A DNA stretch of 64,000 nucleotides from Marinobacter halotolerans (GTDB lineage Bacteria; Pseudomonadota; Gammaproteobacteria; Pseudomonadales; Oleiphilaceae): assembly GCF_008795985.1 (NCBI RefSeq), contig NZ_VMHP01000003.1, positions 62,001 through 126,000 of the forward strand, in the 5' to 3' direction. A program made the position numbers and the translations under genes. This document shows, piece after piece, positions 11,241-53,918 of this stretch; position 1 is the first letter of the stretch, and each line of letters opens with the position of its first letter. The notes under the pieces are model-generated. The model was not told the DNA's origin. It made no database searches and saw only the letters and a list, made by a program, of their open reading frames with translations.

Positions 11241-12164
11241 ATGTCGATGGCTGATCGTGATGGCCTGATCTGGATGGATGGCGAGATGATCCCCTGGCGG
11301 GACGCCAAAACCCATGTGCTGACGCACACCCTGCATTACGGACTGGGCTGCTTCGAGGGCGTGCGCGCCTACAGCACTCCCGAAGGTGCGGCGATTTTCC
11401 GGCTGCAGGATCACACAGACCGCCTGTTCCGCTCCGCCCATATTCTGAACATGAAGATGCCCTTTACCAAAGAGCAGCTGAATGCGGCCCAATGCGCCGC
11501 CGTGAAGGAAAACGGGTTGGACGAAGCCTACCTTCGCCCTATGGTGTTTTACGGATCCGAAGGCATGGGTCTGCGTGCCGATAACCTGCAGGTGCACGTC
11601 ATGGTCGCGGCCTGGAGCTGGCCGTCCTATATGTCCCCCGAAGCCAAGGAGATGGGCATCAAGGTTCGCACCTCTTCCTACACCCGCCATCACGTGAATA
11701 TCACCATGTGTAAGGCCAAAGCCAACGGCAACTACATCAACTCCATGCTGGCGCTGAACGAGGCCATCGCCAGTGGCTGCGAGGAAGCGCTGCTGCTGGA
11801 CAACGAAGGCTATGTGGCAGAAGGGTCCGGCGAGAACATTTTCGTGCTGCGTAACGGCGTACTGCATACACCCGAGCTCACCTCCTGCCTGGAGGGCATT
11901 ACCCGCCAGACCATTCTCGACTTTGCGGCAGAGCTGAATGTGCCGGTGCGCGAGCGCAGGATCACCCGTGATGAAATCTACATCGCCGACGAAGCTTTCT
12001 TCACGGGCACTGCGGCCGAAGTGCTGCCGATTCGTGAACTGGATGGCCGGGTGATCGGCGCCGGCAAGCGCGGCCCGCTGACGGAAAAACTGCAGGGCAT
12101 GTATTTTGATGCGGTGAAGGGCAAGTCGCCCGGGCACAGCCGCTGGCTGACGCAGGTCAACTAA
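11241..12164 (+). CDS. ilvE: branched-chain amino-acid aminotransferase
   Basis: PLP enzyme of fold type IV making Val, Leu and Ile from their 2-oxo acids with glutamate. 307 residues, as in E. coli (309). Visible signatures: THTLHYGLGCFEGVRAY at the N-terminus, the active-site lysine within CKAKANGNYINSMLALNEA, EGSGENIF, and FFTGTAAEVLPI near the C-terminus. AGGAGC precedes the ATG at 11241. It sits between glnE (68 bases upstream) and kdkA (6 bases downstream), so the three could be one transcript. Confidence 0.96.
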   Translation: MSMADRDGLIWMDGEMIPWRDAKTHVLTHTLHYGLGCFEGVRAYSTPEGAAIFRLQDHTDRLFRSAHILNMKMPFTKEQLNAAQCAAVKENGLDEAYLRPMVFYGSEGMGLRADNLQVHVMVAAWSWPSYMSPEAKEMGIKVRTSSYTRHHVNITMCKAKANGNYINSMLALNEAIASGCEEALLLDNEGYVAEGSGENIFVLRNGVLHTPELTSCLEGITRQTILDFAAELNVPVRERRITRDEIYIADEAFFTGTAAEVLPIRELDGRVIGAGKRGPLTEKLQGMYFDAVKGKSPGHSRWLTQVN

Positions 12165-39331: not shown

Positions 39332-41466
39332 TGCCAAACCAGTATCAGGTTAAGTCGGGTGACGTGCTTGGGATGATTGCGAACAAGTACGGTACAACCG
39401 TGTCGCGACTTATGAGAATGAACGAAGGGACGATAGATCACCCTGACAAGATCTATCCTGGTCAGTGTCTCAACGTACCGGCGAACAGCGAATCCTCGTC
39501 ATTTTCATCCGCTCCAGCGTCTAGCGTTGTAGATCGAGGCGATTGTCAGGAAGACTTTGTTGAAATCATCCATATCACTGGAACCGACGAGCTGTTTTTC
39601 TTAACGCAAAGTGATCTGACGGAAATCGAGCGGGAAGAGAAACTGGTTTGCGCACCTATTGGTCGTCTCTATCGGGAAATTAAGGCGGGTAACAATGATG
39701 GTATGTGCAAGATTGATCAGCCCGGTGAAATGGTTGGTCAGGCGATTTCCCCTCTCCAGAAGACAAAGCTGGAGGTTGTCTCAGAGCTAGAGGAAATGGG
39801 CGTTGTGGGGACCAGTATGCAGAGCACGCCACCTTTGACTGAGATCAAGCGCTTGAAAGGCAACAAGCACTATACGTACGTTCGGTCTGACAAAATCGCA
39901 AACCACTGGCGTAGCTATAAGATGACGGCGCAGGACCGGAAGCGCAGTGCTGGTTGGATGAGCCAAAAAGGTATTGATGGCAACAAGCTGAAAGAGGCTG
40001 TTGAGAGTGACTTTGGTATTAAATTCAAGGCAGATCTGTGGAAGCTTGATCCGGATAGCAATCTGAGCAAGTCGCTAAACCAGTTTTATGATGAGGTTAG
40101 TTGGTCTGTTTGGGGCGACAAGGATGCGCAGGCGAAAAACCGTAACGAAACTGGTTTTGATGCCTCCGCAGAGGCTCAATTAATGCGATTTGCAGCCGGC
40201 GCTGAGGCATCGGGCGAATTCACTCCAAGCGAAGGTAAGGTGCATCTACAAGCCAAAGCCGATGCACAATTCAGTTTGGCCCAGGGTAAGGCGTCCATAG
40301 AGCAGGCGTTTCCTGCTAACGACTACTCAGAAATTCGAATCTATTACCGTGTTGGTGGCTGGGATGGTAAGCGAGCATACGCAACCTTGGGCCATTTTCA
40401 GGCCCGCCTTACTATCACCGCGAGCGGATACGCAGGCGCATCAGCCATGCTTGCCGCCAATGTCAAAGTTGATTGCTCGGAAGGTGTGCCCAGTATTAAA
40501 GGCATCGCAGCTGGCGATTCGGATCAAGGGGTTAATGCGGAGGCAGGGGCTTTTGCGGGGGTTCGGGGCGGATGCGAGCTTCTCGGTGCGCTTTACTGGA
40601 CTGACGTGCTCTCAAAACAGTCTGATTGGAAAGCGCTTTGTCAGATCGGGCCCAAAGTTGAGGGGGCTGCGGGAATCGGGGCTGACGTCTACTTGAAGCT
40701 AGCCTTCAGTGAAAAAACAGGCAAATTTCTGTTGAAAGCACATGCAGGGCTGGTGTTGGGATTGGGAGCGAGTGGCAGTTTCCTACTTGAAGTGAGTGCT
40801 CAGGAAATGCTTGAAATGATTCATTTTGTGTACAACAGTCTTCTGAAAGTTGATTTCCGTTACGTTGAGCTGTTTGACCGCCAATCAAAGGCTTTTGAGC
40901 GCTACGTACAAGTTTCATTGTTTGCGTTGTCGAGGGGTGTGGAATATGCGGTTGCCGCAACTGAACTTGCAACGTCGGGGTTCGATTATATGGAGCGAGA
41001 GGTGATTGCGTTTATTAGCGCTCAGCGAGAGGGTTTGGCCAAAGAAAACGACGTCGAAATACTTGCTGAAAATCTCATCAAAGACATTGCCAGAAATGAA
41101 AAAAGTGTTTTTCGACACTCTCCACCTGAAGTAAAAGGCGTAGTTCTATACAAGCTGACATACGACCATTGGCTCACGCCACAGCTCTTTGATGGAACTT
41201 TTACCAAAGTTAAAGCAATCGGCGAAGTATTGAAAACGTTCCAAGGCTGGCGTGACTTCAATGAAACCATGCTTCGCATGAATCCAGATGGTGAGGCAGA
41301 GGCTGGAGTAGGCGAAATAAATGCAGAAAAACTCTTTAAGTTTATAGGCAAAAACCGGTTCGACTATCTCATGTTCAAAAAAACTCTTGAGGCTCGCTCC
41401 GCTATTGCCGATAGGCCCGTCGAGCTTGATCCTTATAGCGCTTGTCATAATTGTGGCATTGTTTAA
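39331..41466 (+). CDS. LysM-headed putative T6SS effector
   Basis: 711 residues. Residues about 5-50 are a LysM domain (YQVKSGDVLGMIANKYGTT), which binds peptidoglycan and also occurs at the head of several secreted cargo proteins. The rest has no toxin domain I recognise. Residues about 270-400 show alternating small and polar residues (SAEAQLMRFAAGAEASGEF); residues 440-490 contain a glycine-rich hydrophobic stretch (AHAGLVLGLGASGSFLLEV); the last third is helical and charged, ending HNCGIV. No signal peptide, as expected for T6SS cargo. It follows vgrG and DUF4123 with a 1-base overlap and precedes a lipoprotein. Effector role rests on position; a pore-forming or envelope-acting toxin is possible. 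Confidence 0.6.
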   Translation: MPNQYQVKSGDVLGMIANKYGTTVSRLMRMNEGTIDHPDKIYPGQCLNVPANSESSSFSSAPASSVVDRGDCQEDFVEIIHITGTDELFFLTQSDLTEIEREEKLVCAPIGRLYREIKAGNNDGMCKIDQPGEMVGQAISPLQKTKLEVVSELEEMGVVGTSMQSTPPLTEIKRLKGNKHYTYVRSDKIANHWRSYKMTAQDRKRSAGWMSQKGIDGNKLKEAVESDFGIKFKADLWKLDPDSNLSKSLNQFYDEVSWSVWGDKDAQAKNRNETGFDASAEAQLMRFAAGAEASGEFTPSEGKVHLQAKADAQFSLAQGKASIEQAFPANDYSEIRIYYRVGGWDGKRAYATLGHFQARLTITASGYAGASAMLAANVKVDCSEGVPSIKGIAAGDSDQGVNAEAGAFAGVRGGCELLGALYWTDVLSKQSDWKALCQIGPKVEGAAGIGADVYLKLAFSEKTGKFLLKAHAGLVLGLGASGSFLLEVSAQEMLEMIHFVYNSLLKVDFRYVELFDRQSKAFERYVQVSLFALSRGVEYAVAATELATSGFDYMEREVIAFISAQREGLAKENDVEILAENLIKDIARNEKSVFRHSPPEVKGVVLYKLTYDHWLTPQLFDGTFTKVKAIGEVLKTFQGWRDFNETMLRMNPDGEAEAGVGEINAEKLFKFIGKNRFDYLMFKKTLEARSAIADRPVELDPYSACHNCGIV

Positions 41467-46684: not shown

Positions 46685-47077
46685 ATGAGCGAGACCCCTC
46701 CAGATCTCAAGTACATCGAAACTCACCAGTGGGCGCGGGCGGCCGATGATGGCACGGCGACCGTGGGTATTACCGATTTTGCGCAGGATCAGCTGGGTGA
46801 TGTGGTTTACGTGGGCGTTCCAGAGGTAGGCGCGACGGTTAACGGCGGTGAGGAGGCCGGTGTGGCCGAGTCGGTCAAATCCGCTTCTGATGTGTTCAGC
46901 CCGGTGACCGGTGAGGTCATCGAGGTGAACGAGGCCCTGGAAGAGGAGCCGGAGCTGGTCAACGAAGATCCTTATGGGGATGGATGGCTGTTCCGGGTGC
47001 GGCTGAAGGATCAGGGCGAGCTTGAAGGCCTGATGGACGCCGACGCCTACGCTGCACACGTTGCTGATGCCGACTAG
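46685..47077 (+). CDS. gcvH: glycine cleavage system H protein
   Basis: Lipoyl carrier that shuttles the aminomethyl group between GcvP, GcvT and Lpd. 130 residues; the lipoylated lysine is Lys65 in AESVKSASD, and the YIETHQWA start and [13 protein letters not shown] end are typical. AGGGAGC precedes the ATG. gcvT and gcvP are not next to it. Its TAG stop shares CTAG with the TAG stop of the opposing wax ester synthase gene. Confidence 0.95.
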
Positions 47078-48453
47078 TCCTGGCTCAGCGTATGCCGCTG
47101 AAGCTCTCTCAAACTCTGCTCAAAGTCGCGGGTTACCTGACTGGGGTCCTGCATCATCTGACTGTCGGCAATGACCCCAAACTGAACTGAACCCGCGTAG
47201 CTCAGGATGCTGAACCCGACTCCCAGGTGTCCGGACTGGGGCACCCAGACCAGCGGCTGAAGAATACGCGCCCCGGCAATGCTCAGTGGCGTTTCTGGCC
47301 CGGGTACATTGGTCATGACCAGTGATGCCTTGTCGCTGAGCGTGTCCAGCGCGAACTTCTCAATGCCCGCTGGCCCCTTGCCCAGCAGGTTCAGCAGGCC
47401 GAAGGTAACCTGGGGTTGGGCAGAGTTCTTCAGGTTGGTCATCGCCTCACGAACCTGGTGGTACCGCTTCAGTGAATCAGGTTCGTTGACCGGAAGCCGA
47501 ACGATAACCAGTCCGAACTGATTGCCCAGAGTGGTGATTGCCTGATCACGTGGGCGCAGGCTGAAGGGCACTGCAACATGTATGTCACTTTCGATATCGT
47601 CATCGACATCAATCAGAAATTGCCTAAGCGCGCCTGCCGCACAGGTCATCAATACGTCGTTGACCGTACCCCTGAGCTGGTGGGCGGTCTCCTTCACTGC
47701 AGCGAGCTCAAGTGGCTGGGCCCAGGCAATACGCTTGCGCCCAGCCAGGCGGGCGTGCAGATGTGTTTCCGGGTCATGCGGCAGTAGGCCGATTCGCATC
47801 AGTTCTTCAGTGATATGCTCGGCCTCCTGAACCCATTGGCCTAACTTCTCGGGGTGTTGCGCCAGCTCCGCCACTTCACTTATCAGGTCGTGGGCCAGGT
47901 GGGCACCGGTTTCGGCCACCCGCCTGAAAGGGCGGGTAAGGCGTTCTGGCAGCGACCCCTCTCTTCGTAGATGATCCTGTGTGTGGGGGTCCCAGGCCTC
48001 ATCTGCCAGTGACATCAGTACCTGAACCAGAGCCAGGCCATCGGCGATGCAGTGATGGATACGTGTAATCAGCGCTGCGCCACCTTCGTAGCGATCAACC
48101 AGATGGAACTGCCAGAGCGGATGGTGAAAATCCAGAGGTTCCGACGCCAGGTCTGCGACCATCTCCTGCAACTCTGCCTGGCCTGCCGGAGCCGGTAGGC
48201 CGATTCGGTGTAAATGGTTGTCCAGATGAAAATTCGGATCCGTTTCCCAGTAAACCCTGCCATTGCGTTCAGTTACTCTTTGCCGGAAGCGGGCAAAGCG
48301 TAACAGGCGGGTCTCCAGCAGTTTCTTGAACCGGTTGCGGTCAACCGGCCTGTCCAGCACCAGGACGCCGGTAATCATCATATGGTTGGCGTCCTGATCC
48401 ATATGCAGCCATGCGGTATCCACACGGCTCATCGGTTCAATGGACTGTGTCAT
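47074..48453 (-). CDS. wax ester synthase/acyl-CoA:diacylglycerol acyltransferase (WS/DGAT)
   Basis: Joins acyl-CoA to a fatty alcohol (wax ester) or diacylglycerol (triacylglycerol). 459 residues: [12 protein letters not shown] start, [10 protein letters not shown], the catalytic HHxxxDG as HHCIADG with His133-His134, the ND block [15 protein letters not shown] and the C-terminal NVPGPETPL. The ATG at 48453 is preferred because GAGG lies 8 bases before it; an in-frame ATG at 48507 has no such site. Divergent from the acyl reductase-like gene. Two FNR-like boxes lie in the shared region. Marinobacter strains are known for several such enzymes. Confidence 0.93.
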
Positions 48454-48549
48454 TGGCAGAGCCTCACGGGTTTCTGTTGTTGTGCCCTGTTTCCCTGGTG
48501 ATTTCATTTATTGCTTAAAAGAGTTTGAGATACCAAGGTTAGATTAAAG

Positions 48550-48563
48550 TTGACGCAGGTCAT
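48550..48563. promoter_or_regulatory. weak FNR/Anr-like box
   Basis: TTGACGCAGGTCAT matches TTGAT-N4-ATCAA at 7 of 10 positions. Centre about 104 bases upstream of the wax ester synthase start. Lower quality than the second box at 48600. Confidence 0.4.
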
Positions 48564-48599
48564 GCCGCTTGTCTCGGGTTCGGAAAATCTGCTGTCCGC

Positions 48600-48613
48600 T
48601 TGATTCACGTCAA
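48600..48613. promoter_or_regulatory. FNR/Anr box in wax synthase/reductase divergent region
   Basis: TTGATTCACGTCAA matches the FNR consensus TTGAT-N4-ATCAA at 9 of 10 positions. It is about 142 bases upstream of the reductase ATG and about 153 bases upstream of the wax ester synthase ATG, in the 294-base gap. The anr gene itself is 2.3 kb away. Confidence 0.6.
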
Positions 48614-48747
48614 TTAACGGCTGCTATTTCAACGGCTGTTGCCATGTAGCATTAGTCAGGCTCTTGTGGTTCAGGCAGCTCTTGAGAAATGGCGGTCAGG
48701 CAGAGTTGTTTTGGATTCAGCACGATAACAGCAGGAAAAGGCCGGAT

Positions 48748-50802
48748 ATGAAAACCATTTTCAGTGTCAGCCAGGGATCCAGCCAGCACGATTACGATCT
48801 GGAAACCGTGTTTCTGGGCCAGCCCTTTCGCATTATCCGCATTGGCTCAGATGGCGACCTGAACAGGGCGGAAGCAGTGCTTGAATCGGTTCGTGACAAG
48901 GCCGATGCCATCGGCCTGAGCATGATTCATGATCACTACCAAGTGGGCCGGGAGCAGCTTGAGCACCCCAGCACAGCGCGGCTGGAAGCCTGCGTTCCGG
49001 ACAAGTCGGTGACAACCGGTCGGGGACTGCGGGCTATTCTCCAGGAATGGGCGGTTCGTCATACCCAATCCGAACTGGGTCATTTCTTCGACAACGCCCG
49101 CGTTTTGTTCCTGAACGGCCAGGCTGGTTATCGTATTGCGCGCGCCTTGTCAGAGCACACCGGTAACCTTTTCTTTGCCGACCCCTACACCGATTTTGGC
49201 GTACCCCGCCTACTGACCTCGCTCAAGCAACTGGAAACCTACACCTCTCTGACAGCGCCGGTGATGTTCCGACCGAGGGCGGTAAAAGCCGTTGAAACAA
49301 TCCTCCACTCGCCGCTCTATCGTCTTGGTGAGAAGCTTGTCAGGGGCTCCCTGCACAAGGCTGTTTCGGATGCCCATGTTATCGTTTCCACAATTGACGA
49401 TCTGAGGCAGTTCACCCGTGAAGAGCTGGACGGAAAAACTATTATCACCTCCCGGGCAACGGATGCCGCGCTGGACTGGATGCGGTCCCGCCGAATCGCC
49501 ATGGTGGTGGACTACAGCCCGTGGCTAGAAGGCCGTCCGGTCGGTGTTAACGTGATGGAAGCCATGATCAGCGCGTCGCTTTCCCGGACACCGGATCAGC
49601 TGGGTCCGGATGATTATCTGGATGTTATCCAGAACCTGGGAATTGAACCGAGAATCCTTTATCCGGATGGTTATCGCAGGGTTAACCGCTTCGCTTTCGT
49701 GATTCACCCTCTGTCCCAGCAGTATCTGACCAAAACCTCGCCTCTGGACTGGATTGCCAATGTGTCGCCTCCCCTGGTGATGAATCTCGTGGAGAAGGCC
49801 GTGGCCTATTCGCCGCCATTCATTTACTCGAAGGTGTCCGGCGTCCGGTCGCCTACCGGTGACGAGGTTGAAGGCTGGCTGATTACGGTTGGTGGCACAC
49901 CCAAGGAAATCATGGCCCACGATCCCGAGTTTACCTATGCGCGCCTGCTTCAGGCAGCGGAACTGGCGAAGAAACTGGGCGCCCAGATCATGGGCCTTGG
50001 TGCATTCACCAAGGTGGTGGGTGATGCAGGTATCACCGTGGCCAAGCGGGCACCGCTGCCGATTACCACTGGCAACAGCTACAGTGCCTCTGGTGCCCTC
50101 TGGGCGGCCCATGATGCCATGAAGCGCATCGGTCGCGTTGGTATAGGTCGCAGTGGCAAGGCGGCCGGTAAGGCCATGGTGGTGGGTGCTACCGGCGCCA
50201 TCGGCTCTGTCTGTGCGAGGTTATTGGCAAAAGCCGTGGATGAGGTGTATCTAGCGGCGCCGGAACCGGCAAAGCTGCTTGCCCTGAAGGAAAGCATCGA
50301 GCAGGAAACACCGGGGGCCATTGTTCATGTGGCCGGCGCTGCAGACAGGGATCTGGAAGATATGGACATGATTGTCACCGCTACCTCCGGGGCCGGCAAG
50401 CGCATACTGGACATCATGAAGGTGAAGCCGGGCTGTGTAATCACCGATGTTGCCCGGCCCCTGGACATATCAGCGGAGGATGTGGCCAGGCGGCCTGACG
50501 TATTGGTGATCGAATCCGGCGAGATACAATTGCCCGGAGATGTCCGGATGAAAGATATCGGCCTACCCCAGGGCATTGCCTATGCGTGCCTGGCGGAAAC
50601 CATCGTACTTGCGCTTGAGGCGCGGTTTGAAAACTTCACGCTGGGTCGGAATATTGAATGGGAAAAAGTTCGGGAAGTATACAAGCTGGGGCTGAAGCAC
50701 GGCATGAAGCTGGCGGCTATATCAGGCGTTAACGGGACCTTCACCGAAGAGGATTTCGAGCGGGTACGGACCCTGGCGGCCAGCAAGGAGAGCCCGCAAT
50801 AG
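48748..50802 (+). CDS. two-part dehydrogenase with acyl-ACP-reductase-like C-terminus (COG5322 type)
   Basis: 684 residues. The C-terminal half (about 311-684) resembles cyanobacterial long-chain acyl-ACP reductase (AAR): MGLGAFTKVVGDAG, ITTGNSYSA, the NADPH motif VVGATGAIGS near residue 478, VITDVARPLD, and YACLAETIVLALE with Cys614 where AAR has its acyl-accepting cysteine, then FTLGRNIEWEKV. Residues 1-310 form a second domain absent from AAR; it contains FLNGQAGYRIARALSEH and GKTIITSRATDAALDW, perhaps another nucleotide-binding fold. ATG at 48748 follows AAAAGG. The divergent wax ester synthase suggests it makes fatty aldehyde; a predicted amino-acid dehydrogenase role is the older annotation. 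Confidence 0.72.
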   Translation: MKTIFSVSQGSSQHDYDLETVFLGQPFRIIRIGSDGDLNRAEAVLESVRDKADAIGLSMIHDHYQVGREQLEHPSTARLEACVPDKSVTTGRGLRAILQEWAVRHTQSELGHFFDNARVLFLNGQAGYRIARALSEHTGNLFFADPYTDFGVPRLLTSLKQLETYTSLTAPVMFRPRAVKAVETILHSPLYRLGEKLVRGSLHKAVSDAHVIVSTIDDLRQFTREELDGKTIITSRATDAALDWMRSRRIAMVVDYSPWLEGRPVGVNVMEAMISASLSRTPDQLGPDDYLDVIQNLGIEPRILYPDGYRRVNRFAFVIHPLSQQYLTKTSPLDWIANVSPPLVMNLVEKAVAYSPPFIYSKVSGVRSPTGDEVEGWLITVGGTPKEIMAHDPEFTYARLLQAAELAKKLGAQIMGLGAFTKVVGDAGITVAKRAPLPITTGNSYSASGALWAAHDAMKRIGRVGIGRSGKAAGKAMVVGATGAIGSVCARLLAKAVDEVYLAAPEPAKLLALKESIEQETPGAIVHVAGAADRDLEDMDMIVTATSGAGKRILDIMKVKPGCVITDVARPLDISAEDVARRPDVLVIESGEIQLPGDVRMKDIGLPQGIAYACLAETIVLALEARFENFTLGRNIEWEKVREVYKLGLKHGMKLAAISGVNGTFTEEDFERVRTLAASKESPQ

Positions 50803-50813
50803 GTTGCGGGCTC
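50790..50813 (+). terminator. hairpin spanning the reductase stop codon
   Basis: Perfect ten-base stem GAGCCCGCAA / TTGCGGGCTC with loop TAGG; the stop codon TAG lies in the loop. No T run follows, so it could be a weak terminator or an mRNA-stabilising 3' end. Confidence 0.45.
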
Positions 50814-50868
50814 ATCTGCGTGATGGCGCCTGCCCAGGTTTAGTGCACCCGGCTACCAGGGGGGGCAA

Positions 50869-51609
50869 CTAACAGGGAGAGTCGTAGTTGTGCACGATAT
50901 TTTTCAGTTGGTCTATGTTAACCAGAGTGCAGTTGCGTCCCTGAATATAAACAAGTTCCTGTTTCTGGAATCGTGTAAGCACCCGGCTGACGGTTTCCAC
51001 TGCCAGGCCAAGGAAGTTGGCGATATCGTTCCGGGCCATGGGCAAACGGAAATTGGTTCCGGACAGGCGCCGTCGGCTGAACCTTGTGGACAGCGACAGC
51101 AGAAATGTCGCCAGGCGCTGCTCCGCATTTTTCCGGTTAAGCAGTATCGCCATCTGCTGGCTGCTCTGGATTTCGCGGCTCATCAACTGGAAAAAGTGCT
51201 GCTGCAGGCTGGGAATCTGTGCTGCCAGTTCTTCAAGGCGGTGCAGGGGAATTTCGCAAACGCTGCTGCGCTCAAGGGCTTCGGCCGAGCACGAGTAGTG
51301 ATCAGTATTGACGCTGTCCAGGGCAACCACTTCGCCCGGCAGATAGAACCCTGTCAGCTGCTTGTCACCATCTGCACTGACAAAATAGGTTTTGATGGCG
51401 CCGGCCTGAACCGCGTAGCAGGATCGGAAAGGGTCATGCTGATTGAAGACCATTTCCCCGCGATCAAGAATTCTCCCCTGGTTGACCACGGCCTCCAGGC
51501 GGTAAAGGTCGTCATGACTGACCGCCATTGGTAGGCAGACATTGCTCAGGCTGCATTGTTCGCAGGAATTGCGAGCCGCCTGTGCTTTGAGGGAAATTGG
51601 CTCGCCCAT
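50869..51609 (-). CDS. anr: FNR/Anr-type oxygen-sensing transcription regulator
   Basis: 246 residues. N-terminal cysteines C16, C19, C25 (NSCEQCSLSNVC) and C118 correspond to the four FNR ligands of the oxygen-labile [4Fe-4S] cluster. A cyclic-nucleotide-type beta roll, dimer helix and winged HTH follow; the recognition helix has VETVSRV (E205, S208, R209), the residues that read TTGAT. It should activate genes under low oxygen. Start ATG at 51609. An FNR box (51648-51661) 40 bases upstream suggests self-regulation or control of the divergent gene. Confidence 0.93.
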   Translation of the reverse strand: MGEPISLKAQAARNSCEQCSLSNVCLPMAVSHDDLYRLEAVVNQGRILDRGEMVFNQHDPFRSCYAVQAGAIKTYFVSADGDKQLTGFYLPGEVVALDSVNTDHYSCSAEALERSSVCEIPLHRLEELAAQIPSLQQHFFQLMSREIQSSQQMAILLNRKNAEQRLATFLLSLSTRFSRRRLSGTNFRLPMARNDIANFLGLAVETVSRVLTRFQKQELVYIQGRNCTLVNIDQLKNIVHNYDSPC

Positions 51610-51647
51610 GATCTTACCCCAGGGTGAAGAAACGCGGACTTCAGGAA

Positions 51648-51661
51648 TTGATCCAGGTCAA
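51648..51661. promoter_or_regulatory. FNR/Anr box between anr and acetyl-CoA hydrolase
   Basis: TTGATCCAGGTCAA matches TTGAT-N4-ATCAA at 9 of 10 positions in the 152-base divergent gap. With the possible -10 TAAGAT at 51714-51719 of the downstream gene it would be centred near -71, a known class I spacing; for anr itself it is close to the gene. Confidence 0.65.
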
Positions 51662-51761
51662 GGATATATCCTAAAAGTTCCGGGCAGGTCGGGCAAGCCG
51701 AATCATGCATAGCTAAGATAGGTTAATAGACAAGTCAGAACAAACCGCGAGCGGGGCACCC

Positions 51762-53918
51762 ATGGAGCAATTTCACGAAGTGGAAGTGTGTGTCGACCGG
51801 GTAATCGACACCGTCGGCAAGAATATCGTGCTCGGGCTGCCCCTGGGGTTGGGTAAACCCAACCAGCTGGTCAACGCGTTTTACGACCGGGCAGTTGCCG
51901 ACCCCGGTCTGTCATTGCGCATCATTACCGCACTTTCCCTGGAAAAGCCCACCCCACAGAACGAGACCGAAGCCAGGTTCCTGGGGCCCTTCGTGGAGCG
52001 ACTTTTCGGGGACTACGAAGAGCTACGGTATACCTCGGCAATTCGCAACAACACCCTGCCGGACAACATCACGGTATCCGAGTTCTATTTCAAGGCCGGT
52101 GCCATGAAAAAGGTCGGCAGCGCCCAGCGCAACTATATATCGAGTAACTATACCTTCGTTGCCCGGGATCTTATGCTTAACGGTGTCAATGTTCTGGCTC
52201 AGTTGGTCAGCGAAAAAGAGGTGGACGGTGTACGGAAGCTAAGCCTCAGCAGCAACACCGATGTCACCCTGGATGTCATGCCCATTATCGAGCAGGAGCG
52301 CAGAAAAGGGCGCACTGTCGTCACCCTTGCCCAGGTTCATGAAGACCTTCCGTTCATGTACAACAAGGCCATGGTTTCGCCGGATTATTTTGACATGGTG
52401 GTGAAAAACAGCGCCTACGCCACCACTCTGTTCGCGCCGCCTAACATGTCGGTGCCGAATGCGGATTATATGGCGGGATTCTATGCCAGTACGCTGATCA
52501 AGGATGGCGGAACCCTGCAGATCGGTATTGGTTCGCTGGGCGATGCTATCGTATACGCCTGCCAGCTGAGGCATCAGCACAACGACCTTTATCGACAGCT
52601 TGTTGAGCAGATGGGCGCAGACAAAAGCCTGATACGTGAATACGGCGGAACGGATGTGTTCAGCGAGGGGCTTTATGGCTCCAGCGAAATGTTCGTAAAC
52701 GGCTTTATGCACCTTATTAAAAGTGGCATCGTCAAACGCTGCGTCTATGACGACCTGAATCTCCAGCGCTTGCTGAATGCCGGGCGGATCGGGGAAGAGG
52801 TTTCCCGCCAGACCCTGGAATGTCTGTTGGAAGAATCCGTCATCCAGCCACGACTGAATGGTTCTGTTGTCACGTACCTGAAGCGCTGGGGCATTTTTAA
52901 AGACTCAGTGAGCTGGACCGATGACGGGCTGCTGGTGAATGGCGAACTCCTGAGTGCGGATCTGGAAAACCCGGAGAATCTGGCCCGCGTTGCGGAACTG
53001 TGCCTGGGTGACAAGCTTAAAGGTGGCTACATGCACGGTGGGTTTTTCCTCGGCCCCCGGGACTTCTATCAGGCCCTGCGCGATATGACCCGGGCAGAAA
53101 GTGAGAAAATCTGCATGTCCAGCGTCGGCCTCATCAATCAACTGGCCTACAATCGTGATCTGCTCAGTGCCCAGCGACGGCATGCCCGCTTTATCAACAC
53201 CGGCATGATGGTCACGGTCAGCGGCGCGGTGGTATCGGACGGACTGGAAGACGGCACGGTCATCAGTGGTGTTGGCGGCCAGTACAACTTCGTTTCCATG
53301 GCCCATGAACTGCCCGACGCCCGCTCCATCCTGTGTGTGCGAAGCACCCGGGGCAGCGGCAAAAATCTCAGGTCCAATGTTGTCATGCACTACGGGCATA
53401 TCACCATCCCGCGCCACCTTCGGGATATCATCGTGACTGAATACGGCATTGCCGACCTTCGAGGCAAAACAGATGAGCAGATTGCCATTGCGCTGCTGAA
53501 AGTCACAGATTCCCGGTTCCAGGAAGAACTGCTTGTGGAAGTCAAAAAAGTCGGCAAGGTAAGGCAGAGCTACCAGATCCCCCAGCAGTATCGGGAAAAT
53601 TACCCGGAAAAACTGGCAGGCCGCATCAAGGCCTTGCGTGATGAGGGCTTCTTCCCGCCATTCCCGTTGGGGACGGACTTCACTGACGAAGAAATTGCAC
53701 TGGGCAAAAGCCTGAAGGACATTAAGGCACTGATGGAAAGGCCCAAGGAAATGATCCGTGCGCTGATACGATCTTTTGTGCACAAAGTCGATGCAAAGGA
53801 GGCTCATCCCTTCCTGGAACGGCTGAGCCTGGAACATCCTGACACACCCCGGGACAAGATCCTGCAGCATCTGCTTCTGCTGGAACTTGAAGAAAACGGT
53901 TACCTGAAGCCGATGTAG
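51762..53918 (+). CDS. acetyl-CoA hydrolase/transferase family protein
   Basis: 718 residues, longer than the roughly 430-500 residues of usual family members. It starts CVDRVIDTVGKNIVLGLPLG, has LQIGIGSLGDA, then the C-terminal CoA-transferase block ISGVGGQYNFVSMAHEL, SNVVMHYGHITIPRH and IIVTEYGIADLRGKT, which is family-typical. The N-terminal extension of residues about 30-200 and a C-terminal helical tail set it apart. Probable CoA transfer between acetyl-CoA (or another acyl-CoA) and a free acid. Divergent from anr with an FNR box between, so low-oxygen acetate or acyl-CoA metabolism is suggested. Confidence 0.82.
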   Translation: MEQFHEVEVCVDRVIDTVGKNIVLGLPLGLGKPNQLVNAFYDRAVADPGLSLRIITALSLEKPTPQNETEARFLGPFVERLFGDYEELRYTSAIRNNTLPDNITVSEFYFKAGAMKKVGSAQRNYISSNYTFVARDLMLNGVNVLAQLVSEKEVDGVRKLSLSSNTDVTLDVMPIIEQERRKGRTVVTLAQVHEDLPFMYNKAMVSPDYFDMVVKNSAYATTLFAPPNMSVPNADYMAGFYASTLIKDGGTLQIGIGSLGDAIVYACQLRHQHNDLYRQLVEQMGADKSLIREYGGTDVFSEGLYGSSEMFVNGFMHLIKSGIVKRCVYDDLNLQRLLNAGRIGEEVSRQTLECLLEESVIQPRLNGSVVTYLKRWGIFKDSVSWTDDGLLVNGELLSADLENPENLARVAELCLGDKLKGGYMHGGFFLGPRDFYQALRDMTRAESEKICMSSVGLINQLAYNRDLLSAQRRHARFINTGMMVTVSGAVVSDGLEDGTVISGVGGQYNFVSMAHELPDARSILCVRSTRGSGKNLRSNVVMHYGHITIPRHLRDIIVTEYGIADLRGKTDEQIAIALLKVTDSRFQEELLVEVKKVGKVRQSYQIPQQYRENYPEKLAGRIKALRDEGFFPPFPLGTDFTDEEIALGKSLKDIKALMERPKEMIRALIRSFVHKVDAKEAHPFLERLSLEHPDTPRDKILQHLLLLELEENGYLKPM

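Follow-up and report, generated by a model that had tools for sequence, protein, structure and literature searches.

A possible oxygen-controlled storage-lipid block with an Anr-type regulator gene in Marinobacter halotolerans

Introduction

Might the formation of wax esters, which in bacteria is usually tied to an excess of carbon and a shortage of nitrogen, also be governed by oxygen? This question is raised by a locus of Marinobacter halotolerans in which a gene for an Fnr-type switch protein (ANR) and several FNR-like boxes stand beside probable wax genes, an arrangement that suggests wax storage under oxygen shortage. The locus lies in a 64-kb stretch (the window; C3:62001-126000 of G000, a 3.78-Mb genome), where gcvH is followed by genes for a WS/DGAT family wax ester synthase (WES, reverse strand), a reductase (RED, forward), ANR (reverse) and a CoA-transferase/acyl-CoA hydrolase (ACH, forward), and then by an rRNA-methyltransferase-like gene (Table 1). 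A first-pass annotation had read these genes as an Anr-controlled wax ester module, and as a whole that reading is partly supported by the present analysis. Judging from the sequence, we lean somewhat towards a storage-lipid block under oxygen control, in which Anr would activate WES and RED and wax ester would serve as product and electron store.

An FNR-type cascade with TTGATN4ATCAA boxes has been proposed for the denitrification genes of Marinobacter (PMC6152468). No report of Anr/FNR control of wax ester genes was found among the titles and abstract openings listed by searches of an open-access library, and a survey of the surroundings of WS/DGAT genes, which places polyhydroxyalkanoate genes near some of them, mentions neither Fnr nor Crp in its main text (PMC10351704).

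Table 1. Features of the block in window coordinates; box scores are matches to the ten consensus bases
Feature	Position	Strand	Remarks
WES, WS/DGAT family wax ester synthase	47074..48453, open frame to 48507	(-)	TIGR02946, PF03007, PF06974
Possible WES -10, CAAACT	48522..48527	(-)	22 nt from box A; spacing shared by G100 (CAGACT) and G014 (CAGAGT)
Box A	48550..48563	(-)	TTGACGCAGGTCAT, 7/10; read towards WES, ATGACCTGCGTCAA; ATGATCTGAGTCAA at the aligned place in G100
Box B	48600..48613	(+)	TTGATTCACGTCAA, 9/10; TTGATCCAGGTCAA at the aligned place in G100
Possible RED -10, TAGCAT	48647..48652	(+)	33 nt beyond box B; G100 has TACCAT at that distance; weak
RED, N-half joined to acyl-ACP-reductase/PigE-like thioester-reductase half	48748..50802	(+)	684 aa from ATG
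ANR, Fnr/Anr-type [4Fe-4S] regulator	50869..51609	(-)	NF008365, 256.9 over 228
Box C, ANR/ACH gap	51648..51661	(.)	TTGATCCAGGTCAA, 9/10; not conserved in G100
ACH, 718-aa CoA-transferase/acyl-CoA hydrolase	51762..53918	(+)	C-terminal domain PF13336 of acetyl-CoA hydrolase/transferases, 131.3 over 23.7

Results

A box pair between WES and RED

The three FNR-like boxes of the first-pass annotation, two at 9/10 and a weaker one, were all recovered. Among 124 Marinobacter genomes, the complete block was found in two, G000 itself and Marinobacter sp. CHS3-4 (G100). Between these two genomes each of boxes A and B aligns with its counterpart, at a spacing of 50 bp, in surroundings that are poorly alignable, and a box pair of that quality 50 bp apart arose in none of 5000 shuffles of the G100 gap. 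On the WES side, box A is separated by 22 nt from CAnACT in both genomes; this would put its centre at -41.5, as for a class II site. A third genome, G014, carries AGGATCCCCATCAA at the place of box A and at the same distance from CAGAGT, so that the box appears there in degenerate form, and an alignment of its WES/RED gap with those of G000 and G100 revealed no box B.

Of 5000 shuffles made for each gap, 1.3% of those for the 294-bp WES/RED gap and 0.26% of those for the 152-bp ANR/ACH gap contained a site with at most one mismatch. The strict pattern TTGATNNNNRTCAA has eight distinct sites in the genome, two of them being boxes B and C, and yielded 5 and 6 matches per strand against 1 and 2 for a reversed control pattern. 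One further strict site lies in the gap that separates a universal-stress-protein gene (PF00582) from a gene of narK type (TIGR00886 below its cut-off, with the frame cut by the locus end), both of which are classic Anr targets; another lies in a different gap, and four lie within open frames. When up to two mismatches were allowed, the window as a whole held 34 sites against 23 expected, a number reached in 2 of 100 shuffles; because this enrichment is mild, weak FNR-like sites carry little meaning. One of the four sites within open frames is a third strict box of the window, TTGATCTCAGTCAA at 39835-39848 on the reverse strand, inside a LysM-type open frame and probably without function.

An FNR-like element before RED across the genus

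RED is present in 85 of the 124 genomes, in one as a remnant and in a few in pieces. Setting aside G000 as the window itself, G048 (remnant only) and four genomes with short contigs (G082, G085, G089 and G092), 79 relatives provided an upstream region. RED is divergent from a class I fructose-bisphosphate aldolase gene in 70 of these 79 loci, with the aldolase start less than 400 bp away (aldolase identity: PF00274, 454.5 bits in the one gene tested).

A scan of 400 bp with the pattern TTGATNNNNATCAA detected a site within one mismatch in only 2 of the 79 loci (L047 and L107), which suggested that RED elsewhere in the genus has no box. This was overturned by anchoring on the left half. With L107 and L039 set aside, the left part TTGA[TC][CG]T[GA] was found 74-104 bp before RED in 75 of the 77 loci outside the block lineage (absent in L081 and L083), as against 94 of 15400 base-shuffled segments. 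The resulting 14-bp element has the consensus TTGAYCTGNGCTAA, exact in 47 of the 75 loci, and is followed exactly 22 nt later by TAnnCT in 73 of them. Mean pairwise identity amounts to 86% in the 14-mer and 63% in the -10 region, compared with 29-40% in three flanking stretches. Because the first eight bases of the 14-mer served as the anchor, while the -10 region did not, the evidence for the element lies in its frequency relative to the shuffles, in the later columns and in the -10. On the aldolase side, a leftward TA[CT]A[ACT]T stands 23 nt off in 48 of the 75 loci. The exact TTGAYCTGNGCTAA pattern occurred in 75 of 274 loci, once each and always at RED, a count that is no test of motif specificity because several genomes occur twice and most loci were chosen for RED. 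Taken together, the element looks like a class II promoter of the CRP/FNR family, with an FNR-like left half and a non-canonical right half.

The element is also present in three of 12 full-length RED genes from other families (L263, L266 and, with CTA for CTG, L260); five of the 12, all from one genus, have the left part only, and four have neither, although L259 among the latter has another FNR-like site. In the Marinobacter sample RED is found more often where anr is present, in 83 of 112 such genomes against 2 of the 12 that lack it (Fisher p 1.5e-4, uncorrected for kinship). Within the window, TTGACCTGCGTCAG at 12147-12160, one mismatch from the RED-type motif, lies in the end of what reads by eye as a branched-chain aminotransferase-like gene.

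Which regulator would read the boxes

ANR itself was confirmed as an Fnr/Anr-type protein. Its Cys16, Cys19, Cys25 and Cys118 and its ETVSR recognition helix align with solved Fnr, in which the four cysteines bind the cluster and ExxSR forms the recognition helix. It is the sole close regulator of this type in G000; the two other matches (27% and 23%) are remote and comprise a 249-aa Crp/Fnr-family protein (PF00027, PF13545; containing PETFSR), which looks like DNR, and a 217-aa protein, which looks like a homologue of CRP.

The 249-aa protein raises the possibility that the boxes are read mainly by DNR, the nitric oxide-responsive relative of Anr, and that the block answers to denitrification instead of to oxygen itself. 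The gene of this protein, whose DNR label is our own reading, lies near what reads by eye as the end of narI, and one common consensus is described for Anr and Dnr (PMC6588701, PMC6152468). However, the only close anr of the genome sits in the block, and it is in the anr-less G014 that box A is degenerate and box B missing, so that we regard a mainly DNR-driven block as distinctly improbable.

Several observations weigh against Anr control of the block. Box A matches just 7 of the 10 consensus bases, and box B stands at about -52 from the only visible RED -10, a spacing outside the standard ones for FNR. CHS3-4 has no conserved box C; the best site of its ANR/ACH gap has two mismatches, a value reached by 28% of shuffles, and no -10-like string stands at 22 nt from box C. 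Since the full block occurs in two genomes only, box conservation rests on one comparison, and G014 keeps WES and RED yet has no anr at E 1e-20. As for the genus-wide RED element, its right half, GCTAA, is conserved as such and is not a canonical Anr half-site; in 72 of the 79 loci the best site in the stretch scanned has at least three mismatches to the Anr consensus, and TAnnCT is missing at 22 nt in the three element-bearing RED genes from other families. The claim that all genes of the block answer to oxygen thus divides: the WES/RED gap supports an oxygen-type signal, with its spaced box pair, a distance on the WES side that fits class II and a RED gene that has an FNR-like class II element throughout the genus, whereas the ANR/ACH gap and the placing of box B do not bear it out, the RED element is non-canonical on its right side and a DNR-like protein could share the boxes. 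Similarly, the expected conservation of the sites in relatives holds for boxes A and B in CHS3-4 but fails for box C there and for G014.

The same observations allow a further interpretation, in which the RED element of the genus serves another activator, the 9/10 boxes are incidental and the genes came together accidentally in the gap from gcvH to the rRNA-methyltransferase-like gene, a place prone to insertions. This would fit a right half kept as GCTAA and not as ATCAA, the five RED loci of a single other family that keep only the left part, and the different gene sets that three genomes hold in this gap. Against this, a length of 14 bp, a left half of the form TTGAY and a spacing of exactly -41.5 are traits of the CRP/FNR type, box A when read leftward is only three bases off the RED consensus of the genus, and two of the eight strict boxes of the genome fall in gaps of the block. 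On these grounds we consider an incidental gathering rather unlikely.

Products of the block genes

The gene identities proposed by the first-pass annotation were borne out for WES, RED, ANR and ACH. WES scores 394.6 bits against TIGR02946 (cut-off 309.95), carries the HHxxxDG motif as HHCIADG and belongs to the WS/DGAT family; it is predicted to have wax ester synthase activity. An alignment of three sequences, the window WES and two relatives, puts the probable true start at M19 (48453), the first residue that is invariant among them. G000 has six WS/DGAT genes, including this one.

RED has no Pfam family above cut-off, and its C-terminal half matches both acyl-ACP reductase (AAR) and the thioester-reductase domain of PigE, as had been proposed for AAR. 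It falls outside both equivalogs, scoring 72.1 against 449.7 for AAR (TIGR04058) and 170.1 against 850 for PigE (NF053554). The acyl-carrying residue is Cys294 in AAR and Cys296 in PigE (PMC8341465). As counted on the alignment, Cys614 of RED aligns with this catalytic Cys294 of AAR, and it is invariant in all 22 aligned sequences. RED thus resembles cyanobacterial AAR and the PigE reductase domain over about 300 residues, catalytic cysteine included, but differs from them in an extra, uncharacterised N-half of about 340 residues, in ending after the reductase part without an aminotransferase, and in scores far below those of the equivalogs. The known wax ester routes of Marinobacter reportedly use fatty acyl-CoA reductases, in work attributed to Willis in 2011 and Lenneman in 2013. 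RED is likewise expected to feed precursors to a wax ester synthase, and it looks to be of a different enzyme family.

The RED proteins of M. nauticus are 84-85% identical to that of the window, and those of G000, G100 and G014 form one clade inside Marinobacter (support 0.994, FastTree). In L084 (G088), L085 (G077) and L086 (G065) RED is broken into two or three frames, and L087 (G048) holds only a remnant, which may reflect either decay or sequencing errors. Elsewhere, RED of another genus (L261, L262, L264, L265 and L267) is flanked by genes that by eye read as polyphosphate kinase- and exopolyphosphatase-like. In L268 and L263 an SDR/FAR-like reductase gene (by eye) adjoins RED, a hint of fatty aldehyde/alcohol metabolism.

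ACH is the second paralogue of its kind in G000, the common copy lying at G000:C2:166359 with 47% identity. It does not classify as a butyryl-CoA:acetate or succinate CoA-transferase by four models, which gave 28 to 36 bits against cut-offs of at least 500.

Distribution of the block and the question of its product

Eighty long loci were compared, and 79 of them carry RED; WES, ANR and ACH accompany RED in G100 only, and WES alone does so in G014 only. In G000, G100 and G014 the block genes sit between gcvH and the methyltransferase-like gene. In CHS3-4 the series opens with a phasin-like gene (below its cut-off) and the genes for class I PhaC and PhaZ. WES and an acetoacetyl-CoA reductase gene (above the subfamily cut-off, below that of the PhaB equivalog) follow on the reverse strand, and after them RED (forward), ANR (reverse) and ACH (forward). 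Neither G000 nor G014 has a full PhaC, with only a partial match in a shorter protein. Beside the CHS3-4 block, at L135:3677-5586, lies a tandem pair of 290-aa genes with very similar first 120 residues, and by eye a related-looking gene adjoins the block of G014.

The company of pha genes bears on what the block would produce. It may be controlled by Anr, as in the reading that we favour, and yet have a main product other than wax ester: WES could make triacylglycerol or another ester, the aldehydes of RED could be used elsewhere, and the block could be the remnant of an Anr-controlled polyhydroxybutyrate (PHB) cluster such as that of CHS3-4. Besides the PHB-type genes around WES in that strain, this would agree with the six WS/DGAT genes of G000, with the fact that only two of the 79 long loci carrying RED in other Marinobacter genomes have this WES beside it, and with the lack of any such WES within 1.5 kb of RED in 13 loci of other families. 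G000 and G014, however, keep WES and RED together without a full PhaC, and we hold a different main product to be unlikely, if with a real share of the probability.

Two simpler accounts of the block's distribution were discarded. Conservation throughout Marinobacter was ruled out, with the WES type (>70% identity) restricted to G000, G100 and G014 and the ACH type (>60%) to G000 and G100 among the 124 genomes. Import of the whole block from outside the genus was likewise ruled out. The ACH relatives in nine outside genomes (57-70% identity) are not beside ANR, RED or WES, as determined by tblastn on stretches of 10-20 kb (in G159 ACH is at a contig end with one flank unseen) for a set from which 12 family members with about 50% ACH identity were left out. 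In addition, within the stretches fetched for a species collection (80 WES-type loci kept of 91 found), the 79 loci besides CHS3-4 have no RED, ANR, PhaC or PhaZ nearby, while one has an ACH-like piece about 9 kb off. The clade that RED of the three genomes forms within Marinobacter also argues against import as a unit. Two further environmental contigs (122006 and 32741 bases) may also carry the ANR/ACH pair.

Origin of the block anr

In each of three other Marinobacter genomes compared, anr has a fabB-like (beta-ketoacyl-synthase) gene on one side and an RmlD-type gene on the other, and a gene for a ribosome-binding GTPase is close by. In G000, G014 and G100 (L272, L273 and L274) the RmlD-type and GTPase genes are adjacent, with neither anr nor a fabB-like gene between them. 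A tree of 123 proteins unites the window ANR with 15 near relatives, among them the ANR of CHS3-4, in one clade (100/99). The canonical Marinobacter proteins fall in a separate 52-row group (100/90), and the clade of the window ANR adjoins a three-row group containing a Tamilnaduibacter sequence (99/95). From this placement it is doubtful that the block anr is the usual one relocated, although fast evolution after such a relocation stays possible because the branches of the tree are long. Synteny and trees therefore point to one lineage without anr at the usual place, in two members of which a different anr lies in a storage block.

Discussion

If the block works as we favour, Anr would regain its Fe-S cluster and dimerise as oxygen falls. 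It would then bind box A and activate WES from a class II site, and bind box B and affect RED. Using a nicotinamide cofactor, RED would reduce fatty acyl thioesters to aldehydes, which another enzyme would convert to alcohol, and WES would join alcohol and acyl-CoA into wax ester, in which carbon and reducing power would be stored. As to its origin, RED would have left the side of the aldolase gene in one Marinobacter lineage and joined WES, and a foreign-type anr and ACH would have joined them.

The proposed control has its nearest counterpart in PHB metabolism. Anr controls PHB genes in Pseudomonas extremaustralis, and links to PHB are likewise described for Fnr in Herbaspirillum and CydR in Azotobacter (PMC9049629). 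Full PHB synthesis under oxygen shortage depends on the Fnr-type regulator in P. extremaustralis and Herbaspirillum, while in Azotobacter the sign is reversed, with loss of cydR advancing PHB accumulation (PMC9049629). These systems, as far as described there, share with the present block an Fnr-type regulator tied to a reduced storage compound, and the CHS3-4 block even has phaC and phaZ; they differ in that the boxes of the window precede a wax ester synthase and an acyl-thioester reductase, and in that the anr gene itself lies in the block. The pha genes of CHS3-4, together with the known link between Anr and PHB, thus speak for storage at low oxygen, though not for wax ester in particular.

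In Mycobacterium, hypoxia leads to triacylglycerol accumulation of the DosR type. Formation of wax ester under anaerobiosis or stress is described for Euglena, as a fermentation (PMC5647427), and for dormant M. tuberculosis (PMC3522743). All three, so far as these accounts go, resemble our proposal in physiology only, their regulators and gene sets being unrelated.

A wider and more tentative picture, which we put at somewhat less than an even chance, is that across Marinobacter RED and the back-to-back class I aldolase gene share one class II element of the FNR family (consensus TTGAYCTGNGCTAA), through which low oxygen would link fatty aldehyde or wax ester formation with central carbon flow. 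One lineage would then have rebuilt this arrangement: RED would have joined WES and, in CHS3-4, a PHB cluster as well; anr and fabB would have left their usual place, and a foreign anr would have become the only close Fnr-type oxygen regulator, inside the storage block.

The genus-wide RED promoter and the RED gene of M. nauticus make the idea testable beyond the rare lineage that carries the block. If it is true, it would provide a handle on wax ester production and add another kind of reductase to the Marinobacter pathway, and marine hydrocarbon degraders could park electrons in wax when respiration stalls.

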